Positions 3,639 to 50,046 of a stretch of 64,000 bases of DNA are shown piece after piece. Position 1 is the first letter of the stretch. Each line of letters begins with the position of its first letter. The stretch covers positions 1-64,000 of the forward strand of contig JAFYXN010000021.1 of NCBI GenBank assembly GCA_017546145.1. The letters run 5' to 3'. The DNA is from Clostridia bacterium (GTDB lineage Bacteria; Bacillota; Clostridia; Monoglobales; Monoglobaceae). Made by a program: the position numbers and the translations under genes. The notes beneath the pieces were generated by a model. The model saw only the letters and a program-made list of their open reading frames with translations. It had not been told where the DNA came from and did no database searches.

Positions 3639-3681
3639 ACAGAAAAAAGTATCGACTATGTCGGTACTTTTTTCTGTTTTA
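3639..3681 (+). terminator. strong Rho-independent terminator (gtr operon)
   Basis: An 18-bp stem 3639-3656/3660-3677 with loop TAT and a U-rich arm. The core ATCGACTATGTCGGT is identical to the terminator at 37091-37124 after the Lys-Glu tRNAs, with one compensatory base-pair change between the two. Confidence 0.9.
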
Positions 3682-3838
3682 TTTGCCTTGAGGCAAGTTG
3701 TATTACTTTGTAGTGTTATTGTGCATCACACAGTTAAAGGTCAAACAAAATGCCACTAAAACCCGAAGGTTTCAATAAAACTATTGCGGAGCAATAATTT
3801 CGCTTTGCAGCTTGATGCAAAATTTAGCTAAATCCTAT

Positions 3839-3862
3839 GTCATCTAAACCATTTGGATCTTC
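3839..3862 (+). repeat. left direct repeat flanking the restriction-modification cassette
   Basis: Starts with GTCATCTAAACCATT and ends with TCTTC. The second copy is at 6573-6596, just after the stop codon of the nuclease gene. The first 15 bp are identical and about 21 of 24 match. Confidence 0.75.
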
Positions 3863-3871
3863 CACCAAAAT

Positions 3872-3939: not shown

Positions 3940-3957
3940 ATTATAGAGGTGATTCAA

Positions 3958-5505
3958 GTGAGCAATAACGAGAGCATCATATCCCAAACACCATCCTCAA
4001 TATATCTCATGCATAAATATTGGGGTAAAAAGCCAAGTAAAGAATTACGTGAAATTATTGAAAAATACACAAAAGAAAATGATTTAATATTAGATCCATT
4101 TTCAGGATTTGGCGGTATAGGAATAGAAAGTATTTTACTTAATAGAAATATAATATTGAATGATTTAAATCCTATTGCAAATTTTATTTCAAAAAACATA
4201 ATAGAGTGTGATATAGATATAAAGAAATTAAAAAATATATTATCTAGTTTAAAAAATTCTTATTTATCATTTGAAAAGAAATGGTATATTTATAAAGACT
4301 GCAAAATTATCGCCATTTTAAGAGATAAAGATGATGTTCCATTAATGTTGAAGGTTCAAAGTCAAAACGGTTCAATTTATTCTGAGCTTACTCTAAATGA
4401 ACAGGAAAGGGATGCTTTTCTTAAGGAAGAAAAAGAGTTTGAAATTAAAACTTGGTATCCTAATAAACTATTAATAAAAAATTCTAGAATTTCTGCTAAG
4501 GAGAATACGAGAATCGGAGATTTGTTTCCTAAAAGAGCATTGATTTGTCATTCCTATTTATTTGATCTAATTTCTAAACTTGATGAATCTAAAGAAAAAG
4601 AACTTATAAAAATGGCGTTTACCGCAAACTTAGCAAATTGTTCAAAATTGGTTCCACCTATTTCCTCTAGGGGGAGGTTTGCACCGGGGGCATGGATGAC
4701 AGGATTTTATATTCCTAATGAATATATAGAAAACAATGTATTTCATTATTTCGAAAATAGAGTTAAAAAAGTTGTAAAAGGCAAGGCTGATTTATTAAAA
4801 ATAAAATCTGAAACACAACAAATAGGTAAATTCAAAATAACAAATAATGATGCAAAAAATCTAAAACTTGAGGATAATTCAATAGATTTTGTTTTTACAG
4901 ATTTTCCTTATGGTGATACAGTCCCATATTTTGAACAAAGTCAATTATGGAACGCATGGCTAAAGTATAATGTTGATTATGAAAATGAGATAGTTGTTTC
5001 GGATAGTGGAGAACGTAATAAAACAATAGACAAGTATGCTAATGATATTGATTTAGCAATAGCTGAAATACATCGTGTTCTTAAACCGGGTGCTTTGTTT
5101 GTTTTTACATTCCACTCGCTAAACGGAAAAGAATGGACCGCTATTTCAAATTCCATGGCAAAAAATGGTTTTGAGTTTCTCGATTCTAAATTGCTGTCGC
5201 AGAAAACTTATACTCCCAGGCAATTAAATAGGCAAAATACTATTAAAGGCGATATGCTTGTTCAGTACAGAAAACAAACAAATAAATCTCTTGATAATGT
5301 TGAAAATATCCAACAGATTTTGTCTGATGAGTTGAAAAGTAATTGCATACCTACAAAACGGTACGAAACGAATGACCTGATTGTGATGTGTGTAAACAAA
5401 ATGCTATCATTGAATTCAAGTGTCGATGAGGTTGATTTTATAAGTGTAATAAAAAATAACTTTGATATTGATAGGGAATTGTGGAGGTGTAGATATGAAT
5501 TATAA
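3958..5505 (+). CDS. site-specific DNA methyltransferase (N4/N6-type)
   Basis: A 515-residue amino-methyltransferase. The AdoMet-binding motif I is LDPFSGFGGIG (residues 45-55). The catalytic motif IV reads TDFPYG (Asp at residue 315), a variant of DPPY/NPPY. An N-terminal HKYWGKKP segment (19-26) precedes motif I. The region of about 240 residues between motifs I and IV is long enough to hold the target-recognition part. GTG 3958 is chosen because the in-frame GTG at 3949 lies inside the ribosome-binding site. The gene is very AT-rich, has its own promoter and overlaps the putative nuclease gene by 11 bp. Modification partner of a type II-like system. The recognition sequence is unknown. Confidence 0.88.
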   Translation: MSNNESIISQTPSSIYLMHKYWGKKPSKELREIIEKYTKENDLILDPFSGFGGIGIESILLNRNIILNDLNPIANFISKNIIECDIDIKKLKNILSSLKNSYLSFEKKWYIYKDCKIIAILRDKDDVPLMLKVQSQNGSIYSELTLNEQERDAFLKEEKEFEIKTWYPNKLLIKNSRISAKENTRIGDLFPKRALICHSYLFDLISKLDESKEKELIKMAFTANLANCSKLVPPISSRGRFAPGAWMTGFYIPNEYIENNVFHYFENRVKKVVKGKADLLKIKSETQQIGKFKITNNDAKNLKLEDNSIDFVFTDFPYGDTVPYFEQSQLWNAWLKYNVDYENEIVVSDSGERNKTIDKYANDIDLAIAEIHRVLKPGALFVFTFHSLNGKEWTAISNSMAKNGFEFLDSKLLSQKTYTPRQLNRQNTIKGDMLVQYRKQTNKSLDNVENIQQILSDELKSNCIPTKRYETNDLIVMCVNKMLSLNSSVDEVDFISVIKNNFDIDRELWRCRYEL

Positions 5506-6571
5506 TGAATTAATAAAACTTTATAAAAATAACGAGTTTAGAAAAATAGATGAACAAAGTAATGCTACAAAATTTTATATGTTGAGAAGTATATCAAAAA
5601 GCAAGACTCTCAATGCCTTTTGTGAAAAATTTTCATTAGATACCGATTTGAATCAAATTTTGCACAATGAAGATATAACTGTTCAACATATTAAAGAGTT
5701 TATAAAAGAAACATTTAATCCTAAAACCATTGATGAAATAAAGGATATTGAAAGAGAATTAAATAAGTTGCAAAATTTTGATTGGGGAGGTTCAGCTGGG
5801 AATAATCTTGAAAAGAATATTGTAAATAACTATATAAAGAAGATGGTAAAATACGAGGAGCTAGAAGAGGCGCTTCAGGGAAACATTTTAAGAAGTGTGT
5901 ATGGATATACAATGAATTCTTGGTATAATCATTGGTCAACTATAATGATTGAGGACATATTTAAGAATAGTCCTAAAGTTTTGCCAACGGTTGATTTGAT
6001 TGAAAAAATAGATTTCTTCATTGATGATATTCCCTATGACTTAAAAGTTACATATTTTCCAGAAGAATTGATGAAGGAAAAAATTTCAACACGTTTGCTT
6101 GAAATGTATGATAGCAAGAGTGAATTAACTTGTTTAAAAAGGTTTGCAAAGAAAGCTGATATTGCTATACCTAATGATTTGAAAGGAAGAGAACTAACTA
6201 TTTGTTTATATAACTTATTGTGTGAATCTGTTGATACAGAAGCAAAAAAGTTTATTGATGATTTAAACAAAATAAAAAAAGATGTGGTAAATTATTATAA
6301 GAATAATCCTAACGAATTAATTGTGTGGCTATATGAGAATCAAGGGGAAATGAGATTTGATGCAGCAAATAGATTATATGTTGTTTTAATCGACTCAGAG
6401 CGATACTTTGATAGTTGGAAATTAAAAAGAAATATGAACTTGATAAAAGATAAAATACTATCAAAAGTAAACGAAATATCTTCAGAAAATAAAAATTTCA
6501 TTAATTTTCATTGGAAGAAGGATGATAAACAATACGCTTGTATTTCTGAAGTATTGTTTATTGATAAGTAG
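5495..6571 (+). CDS. putative PD-(D/E)XK restriction endonuclease of the R-M pair
   Basis: A 358-residue protein without a family I recognise by name. Residues E153 (HWSTIMIEDIF), D173 (KIDFF) and D182-L-K184 (YDLKVTY) form a plausible PD-(D/E)XK active site, E...D...DxK. The spacing between a beta-hairpin Asp and a DxK strand is typical of type II nucleases. The start ATG 5495 has GGAGG at 5483-5487, within the methyltransferase coding end. Tight coupling to a DNA methyltransferase is the main reason for calling it the cognate endonuclease. Base composition is as AT-rich as its partner and unlike the housekeeping genes, suggesting joint acquisition. It could also be another methyltransferase-associated protein. 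Confidence 0.65.
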   Translation: MNYNELIKLYKNNEFRKIDEQSNATKFYMLRSISKSKTLNAFCEKFSLDTDLNQILHNEDITVQHIKEFIKETFNPKTIDEIKDIERELNKLQNFDWGGSAGNNLEKNIVNNYIKKMVKYEELEEALQGNILRSVYGYTMNSWYNHWSTIMIEDIFKNSPKVLPTVDLIEKIDFFIDDIPYDLKVTYFPEELMKEKISTRLLEMYDSKSELTCLKRFAKKADIAIPNDLKGRELTICLYNLLCESVDTEAKKFIDDLNKIKKDVVNYYKNNPNELIVWLYENQGEMRFDAANRLYVVLIDSERYFDSWKLKRNMNLIKDKILSKVNEISSENKNFINFHWKKDDKQYACISEVLFIDK

Positions 6572-6572
6572 T

Positions 6573-6596
6573 GTCATCTAAACCATTCGACTCTTC
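6573..6596 (+). repeat. right direct repeat flanking the restriction-modification cassette
   Basis: Begins with GTCATCTAAACCATT, identical to 3839-3853, then diverges slightly and ends with TCTTC as in the left copy. It starts one base after the stop of the nuclease gene. Confidence 0.75.
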
Positions 6597-37089: not shown

Positions 37090-37090
37090 G

Positions 37091-37124
37091 AAAAAAAGCA
37101 TCGACTATGTCGGTGCTTTTTTTT
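37091..37124 (+). terminator. terminator after the Lys-Glu tRNAs
   Basis: A 15-bp stem (37091-37105/37109-37123) with loop TAT and a T-run. The core is shared with the terminator at 3639-3681. Confidence 0.9.
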
Positions 37125-37240
37125 CAATGAACTGAGCAAAGGTGCTAATAGTAAATGTTAAAGATAATGTAAGGGGACATTATCTGATTGGAAATAAAAG
37201 TTAATTACAAAATTAATACTAAAGAAAGAGGGTCTTCATT

Positions 37241-49646: not shown

Positions 49647-49722
<76 letters not shown>

Positions 49723-49723
49723 G

Positions 49724-49754
49724 AAAAAACGACAAGTTTCACTTGTCGTTTTTT
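49724..49754 (+). terminator. terminator after the Asp-Thr tRNAs
   Basis: The 14-bp perfect stem (49724-49737/49741-49754), AAAAAACGACAAGT / ACTTGTCGTTTTTT. Confidence 0.9.
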
Positions 49755-49755
49755 C

Positions 49756-49939
49756 AATGAAATAAATCCTGCGGATTTGTGAAATGCACTTCGTGCGTGA
49801 AATATTGCTTCGCAATATGAAATACGCCTTGCGGCGTGTGATAAAAGGATTTATTTTATTTCACAGAAAGCGAATGCTTTCTATTTCACAATTTACAAAG
49901 TAAATTATTTCACATCGAGCTTCGGCGAGATATTTCATT
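49756..49939. repeat. mini-hairpin array with mirrored GTGAAAT spacers
   Basis: Seven small dyads separated by a fixed spacer. TGAAAT-type spacers occur at 49758, 49780, 49798 and 49818. The reverse complement ATTTCAC/T follows at 49858, 49883, 49907 and 49932. Dyads include GCAC-TTC-GTGC, ATATTGC-TTC-GCAATAT, ACGCC-TTGC-GGCGT, AGAAAGC-GAAT-GCTTTCT and AATTTAC-AAA-GTAAATT. In addition 49756-49770 can pair with 49846-49860 over 15 bp (one G-U), enclosing three hairpins. No coding potential. A structured RNA or a MITE-like DNA element are both possible. Confidence 0.8.
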
Positions 49940-49950
49940 AATAAATAATT

Positions 49951-50016
49951 GCATCTATTATGTAGCCGAAAGCCAAAAAGAAACGACAATTTCGTAAGAA
50001 ATTGTCGTTTCTTTTT
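49951..50016 (+). terminator. conserved right-end block with terminator hairpin
   Basis: GCATCTATT (49951-49959) and GAAAGCCAA (49968-49976) precede the 14-bp perfect stem 49979-49992/49999-50012 and TTTTT. The same blocks at the same 17-bp spacing precede the hairpin at 224-260, but there the hairpin arms differ in sequence. Confidence 0.75.
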
Positions 50017-50046
50017 GTACTCTTATCGAAGCTTGTCAATGACATC

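Follow-up and report, generated by a model that had tools for sequence, protein, structure and literature searches.

A mirrored hairpin array containing the Gut-1 RNA lies behind tRNA genes and is linked to S23 protein genes

Two of the closest described systems are an RNA family and a class of intervening sequences. The Gut-1 RNA (Rfam RF01706) was reported in 2010 (Weinberg; PMC2864571) from human-gut metagenomes only, as a certain RNA that is not cis-regulatory. In our literature search the accession RF01706 was named in that paper alone, and the search yielded no function or host for the RNA. The intervening sequences that encode S23 proteins were the subject of a 2016 paper, which called their origin and function unclear (PMC4990558). 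No paper linking S23 with tRNA genes or with Gut-1 was found in the same search. What is new here is the element to which Gut-1 belongs; Gut-1 itself has already been described.

The window, by which we mean the whole 64 kb stretch of DNA that was analyzed, carries a tRNA-Thr gene (GGT; 49647-49722, + strand; ARAGORN) with an encoded CCA, and the insertion point is directly behind that CCA. The left end of the element is a terminator-like leader hairpin, H0 (GAAAAAACGACAAGT..ACTTGTCGTTTTTTC; 49723-49755, +), with perfect arms of 15 bp. Then come a left array of the form CAATGAAAT-H1-GTGAAAT-H2-GTGAAAT-H3-TGAAAT-H4 (49756-49828, +), a middle segment (GGATTTATTTT; 49847-49857, +) that is complementary to CAATGAAATAAATCC at the left end, and an inverted right array, ATTTCAC-H5-ATTTCAC-H6-ATTTCAC-H7-ATTTCA (49858-49937, - strand). 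The original prediction had described a constant spacer used four times in one orientation and four times reversed, separating seven short dyads. Indeed, TGAAAT stands at 49758, 49780, 49798 and 49818 and ATTTCA at 49858, 49883, 49907 and 49932, with seven hairpins between the eight spacers. We set aside a CRISPR-like or coding repeat: the units of the array are hairpins whose stems change and whose spacers are constant. All six matches to TGAAAT-N(9-20)-TGAAAT in the window fall in the array, against an expectation of 0.86, a count not attained in any of 100 shuffles. The predicted location behind a tRNA terminator is also accurate, the array being 3' of tRNA-Thr and its terminator-like hairpin. 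The predicted extent of 49756-50016 holds for the array part, whereas the terminator-like hairpin at 49974-50017 is separate and does not belong to the array. The element was not undescribed, as had been claimed, because its left half is the Gut-1 RNA: the RF01706 covariance model matches 49755-49828 on the + strand over all of its 77 positions with 74.5 bits, passing the cut-off of 50. The inverted half gives a second, weaker match on the - strand (42.3 bits, E 3e-7), under that cut-off.

The array folds far better than shuffled sequence. With RNA parameters, the array alone (49754-49940) reaches -54.9 kcal/mol compared with -36.5 for shuffles (z -4.95), and with DNA parameters its z is -6.3; in each case none of 200 shuffles was as good. 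The minimum-energy structure is a ladder in which the left spacers pair with the right ones and the hairpins project as side arms, and it corresponds to the closed multi-branched fold that had been proposed. The complementary left and right spacers of the window copy form its closing stem. The proposed pairing of 49756-49770 with 49846-49860 is present as well, at 93% over 15 nt.

Comparison of 22 TGAAAT elements demonstrates that this fold is conserved. In each of the seven hairpins, pairing is kept in 91-99% of the inner four pairs despite 8-14 different 5' arms, whereas the figure falls to 46-66% when arms are exchanged between elements. For example, own arms are paired in 82/88 cases in H2 (GCAC/GTGC; 49786-49796, +) and in H3 (ATTGC/GCAAT; 49804-49816, +), and in 80/88 in H4 (ACGCC/GGCGT; 49824-49837, +), compared with 0.56, 0.60 and 0.55, respectively, for swapped arms. 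H5-H7 of the right array also covary. The 5' arm of H1 (AAATCC; hairpin at 49764-49778, +) can pair with the middle segment too: the start of the arm has its complement in the element's own middle segment in 21 of the 22 elements, but in only 14 of 188 elements with another arm. The ratio of G.U to A.C mismatches in the stems was 14:5 in one set and 9:8 in a larger one; as a test of strand and nucleic acid, this gave no clear answer between RNA and single-stranded DNA.

Further copies exist both in the genome and in its relatives. The genome itself contains 14 Gut-1 matches, which resolve into nine TGAAAT elements. Eight of the nine start immediately 3' of a tRNA or tmRNA CCA (Thr, Pro, tmRNA, Tyr, Asn, Arg, Arg and Glu), and the ninth is the last in a chain of four behind a tRNA-Arg that also carries one of the eight. 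These loci demonstrate the dispersal of the element and its target site. The chain behind one tRNA-Arg, on contig C9, comprises four elements with three spacer types. Identical or near-identical H0 hairpins accompany the array at unrelated loci (C9 and C16; tmRNA and tRNA-Tyr), and because H0 is common to copies at unrelated tRNAs, we conclude that it belongs to the element and travels with it. The orthologous tRNA-Thr in nine genomes of the same genus has no element behind it in seven, and in one (G008) it is followed by a different subfamily, with spacer GCGATATA. Other subfamilies have the spacers GTGATATT, AGCTAAAT, TCGATATA, ATGATATT, ATGAATTG, ATGATGT and TGAAGT, and their right spacers are almost always the left spacers in reverse complement. 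Many copies have CCA at both ends, and some are behind protein genes rather than tRNAs. A degenerate GTTATATT-type element is also located behind a protein gene in the window itself (3640-3868). It ends in the tail GTCATCTAAACCATTTGGATCTTCCACCA, part of which recurs as its reverse complement in the terminator hairpin that follows. Elsewhere in the window, behind tRNA-Glu (37090-37140), a leader hairpin and CAATGAA occur with no array and seem to be left over from a copy of the element.

The right end of the window copy is probably the tail at 49938-49976 (+; ..TTGCATCTATTATGTAGCCGAAAGCC(A)), a degenerate member of a tail family that recurs in the genus. This family has 28 and 12 occurrences in the nine same-genus genomes, in which a reversed control pattern had no match. 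The tail was rejected as a universal right end. Although it recurs both in type II S23 elements and within the genus, it was not seen behind S23 in the set of 80 loci described below, where other genes often come directly after S23. The genomes that are empty at tRNA-Thr have downstream flanks that do not align. As the genomes yielded no exact empty site whose flanks could be aligned, and transposition was not observed, the position of the right end is not fixed, nor is any duplication of the target. Another type of short repeat (AAAAAGAAACGAC..GTCGTTTCTTTTTGTACTCTTA) occupies 49974-50026 of the window; it too occurs directly behind CCA, and elsewhere it precedes S23 genes (L088, L070, L141).

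The window copy has no S23 (PF05635) gene. The gene after the last array of the C9 chain (G000:C9:2114-2470) does encode an S23 protein (PF05635, 91.5 bits; TIGR02436, 101.1 bits), with solved relatives 2RLD and 2GSC; it is of the TGAAAT type, from the same genome and subfamily as the window copy. Among S23 genes found in a search of 60 relatives, many are directly preceded by a Gut-1-like array or follow a tRNA, and about ten Gut-1 matches adjoin S23 matches. When relatives and class were combined, in counts that include related sequences and come almost entirely from draft MAGs, an array of at least four units was upstream of 40 of 123 S23 loci, compared with 10 of 238 other ORFs and 0 of 1230 shuffles; a tRNA was upstream of 33 of the 123. 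The spacer also follows the protein. On a tree of 59 S23 proteins, with the same reservations about relatedness and draft genomes, ten spacer labels require nine changes, the minimum, against a shuffled mean of 40.6 (none of 200 shuffles was as low), whereas the host-family label requires 38. The element therefore passes between host families with protein and spacer kept together. Co-inheritance alone, without binding, could account for this lock.

An independent set of 80 S23 loci from named genomes, chosen by protein similarity alone, confirmed the linkage; a few of these may repeat loci of the first set, and nearly all are from Clostridia or Oscillospiraceae MAGs, many of them from ruminant guts. 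A spacer array precedes S23 at 79 of the 80 loci. At 59 of the 80 a tRNA is upstream in the same direction, mostly with 211-301 nt between its CCA and S23, and more than a dozen tRNA types are represented. An Rfam scan of 20 loci found Gut-1 above the gathering score before S23 in all 20. Two unannotated human-faeces scaffolds deposited as phage likewise have an array before S23, in one case behind tRNA-Arg. In L209, L233 and L128, S23 has the left array on one side and the right array on the other, which is the arrangement of a classical intervening sequence and connects that kind with the tRNA-end elements. Four further loci (L131, L125, L127 and L327) have low-complexity repeats such as TTAGGAATGAGGAATTAG beside S23, which are inverted on the two sides where both could be read; in L327, S23 is positioned between hsdS and hsdR.

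Other genes often accompany S23. An ORF follows it directly at 56 of the 80 loci (L244-L323). In 27 of these the two reading frames share exactly four bases (ATGA or GTGA) at the S23 stop codon, and most of the 27 have a ribosome-binding, Shine-Dalgarno-like GCAAAGGAGAA within the 3' end of S23. The ten downstream proteins that we scanned are mostly unrelated to one another (HAD hydrolases, a GNAT acetyltransferase, SfsA, MntP, pyrophosphatase-like and P-loop proteins, and two without a family). They look like captured cargo, possibly in a gene-cassette arrangement. If so, the element would also offer gut Clostridia a way to place genes 3' of tRNA genes. The window also has a DNA methylase gene (N6_N4_Mtase) with an unknown 369-aa partner between two tail copies (3949-6595); this may be a cargo module, possibly of restriction-modification type.

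We consider it likely that the window holds at this locus a noncoding and MITE-like copy of a small mobile element found behind tRNA genes. The original prediction had seen a structured RNA or MITE-like element rather than a normal intergenic region, and the further copies and the folding excess bear this out. In its full form the element would consist of the tRNA CCA, the terminator-like H0, the mirrored 4+4 array that includes Gut-1, an S23 gene and often a translationally coupled downstream gene. We propose that S23, a four-helix bundle, would bind the array, either as folded RNA or as single-stranded DNA, and that the spacer would confer specificity; the resulting complex would tag the element to be copied to the CCA at the 3' ends of tRNA genes. 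Insertion would be harmless because H0 would restore a terminator to the tRNA. Copies without S23 would use the protein in trans, for example from the TGAAAT-type gene on C9; the window copy would have moved in this way or be a dead remnant. More tentatively, though as a serious possibility, S23 may be the specificity factor of a widespread, unrecognized class of mobile elements or cassettes that aim at tRNA 3' CCA ends by way of a folded array, with Gut-1 as the array and the rRNA intervening sequences as one lineage.

The best surviving alternative, although we think it unlikely, is that Gut-1 is an ordinary structured noncoding RNA or 5' leader whose array regulates the S23 operon by autoregulation and is not mobile, copies without S23 being stand-alone sRNAs. 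The strong RNA folding, the few tens of nucleotides between array and S23 start codon, the ATGA coupling of downstream genes to S23 and the classing of Gut-1 in the 2010 paper as a certain RNA, not cis-regulatory, all agree with this. Against it, the genome has at least nine arrays against two S23 genes, the terminator-like H0 separates tRNA from array, and the same element recurs at unrelated tRNAs. Nor do the stems have an excess of G.U over A.C in the larger set, and the mirrored symmetry makes both strands equivalent.

Somewhat less probable again is a REP/REPIN- or IS200/IS605-like element, in which a Y1 transposase from another locus reads the hairpins as single-stranded DNA and S23 is a passenger. 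Hairpins beside short fixed spacers, two units paired in inverted order, CCA at both ends with no clear duplication, and the folding excess with DNA parameters would all suit such an element, but a passenger need not be locked to the arrays by clade, as S23 is, and no Y1 transposase was noticed in the elements inspected. A classical integrase-driven island or satellite with tRNA 3' ends as attB is improbable: precise placement and fixed orientation at tRNA and tmRNA 3' ends point that way, as does one att-like duplication (G006:C20, L120: a tRNA-Arg, an S23 element, then a repeat of the tRNA-Arg 3' end followed by a Gut-1 element), but at the 59 tRNA-linked loci no att-site duplication was found, the tRNA's own 3' end recurring downstream no more than other tRNAs' ends, which disfavors a tyrosine integrase, and a site-specific integrase would not be expected to use more than a dozen types of tRNA, as one subfamily here does.

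The mobile array-S23 element that we favor resembles three known systems and differs from each. Its left array fits the whole Gut-1 model, and the cut-off is also exceeded by S23-linked arrays from other genomes. Only half of the unit is captured by the model, however: in full it is a mirrored 4+4 array that has a leader hairpin and a right arm, is located at tRNA 3' ends, occurs in further spacer subfamilies and is part of S23 elements. The Gut-1 passages of the 2010 paper (PMC2864571) contain nothing on the mirrored unit, tRNA ends, subfamilies or S23. With MITEs, REPs, REPINs and BIMEs, the window copy shares several general features, being short, noncoding, multicopy, with inverted ends and at the 3' end of a gene. 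It differs in that the elements here are exactly at the CCA of many tRNAs, have variable stems and constant spacers, and have as partner S23 rather than a known transposase. The window copy has its array in common with S23-coding elements, although S23 is not proven to be a transposase. The identity of the window copy is 63-80% to the S23-coding elements compared, from other MAGs, and 90% to the closest noncoding copy. Finally, the 23S rRNA intervening sequences that carry S23/IVP (for example in Coxiella; PMC4990558; PF05635) share the protein family and have complementary ends that form a long stem, with S23 inside the fold as in the three loci flanked by arrays. Here, in contrast, a hairpin array, usually upstream of S23, replaces that stem, and the elements are behind tRNA CCA ends rather than within 23S rRNA. 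The window copy, which lacks S23, is not a classical intervening sequence, because it is inserted behind the CCA of tRNA-Thr and not in a 23S rRNA helix. Overall, this comparison joins two orphans, the Gut-1 RNA and the S23 protein. The one-to-one match between spacers and S23 clades turns both into a question of direct binding, and offers a candidate mechanism for the spread of intervening sequences.
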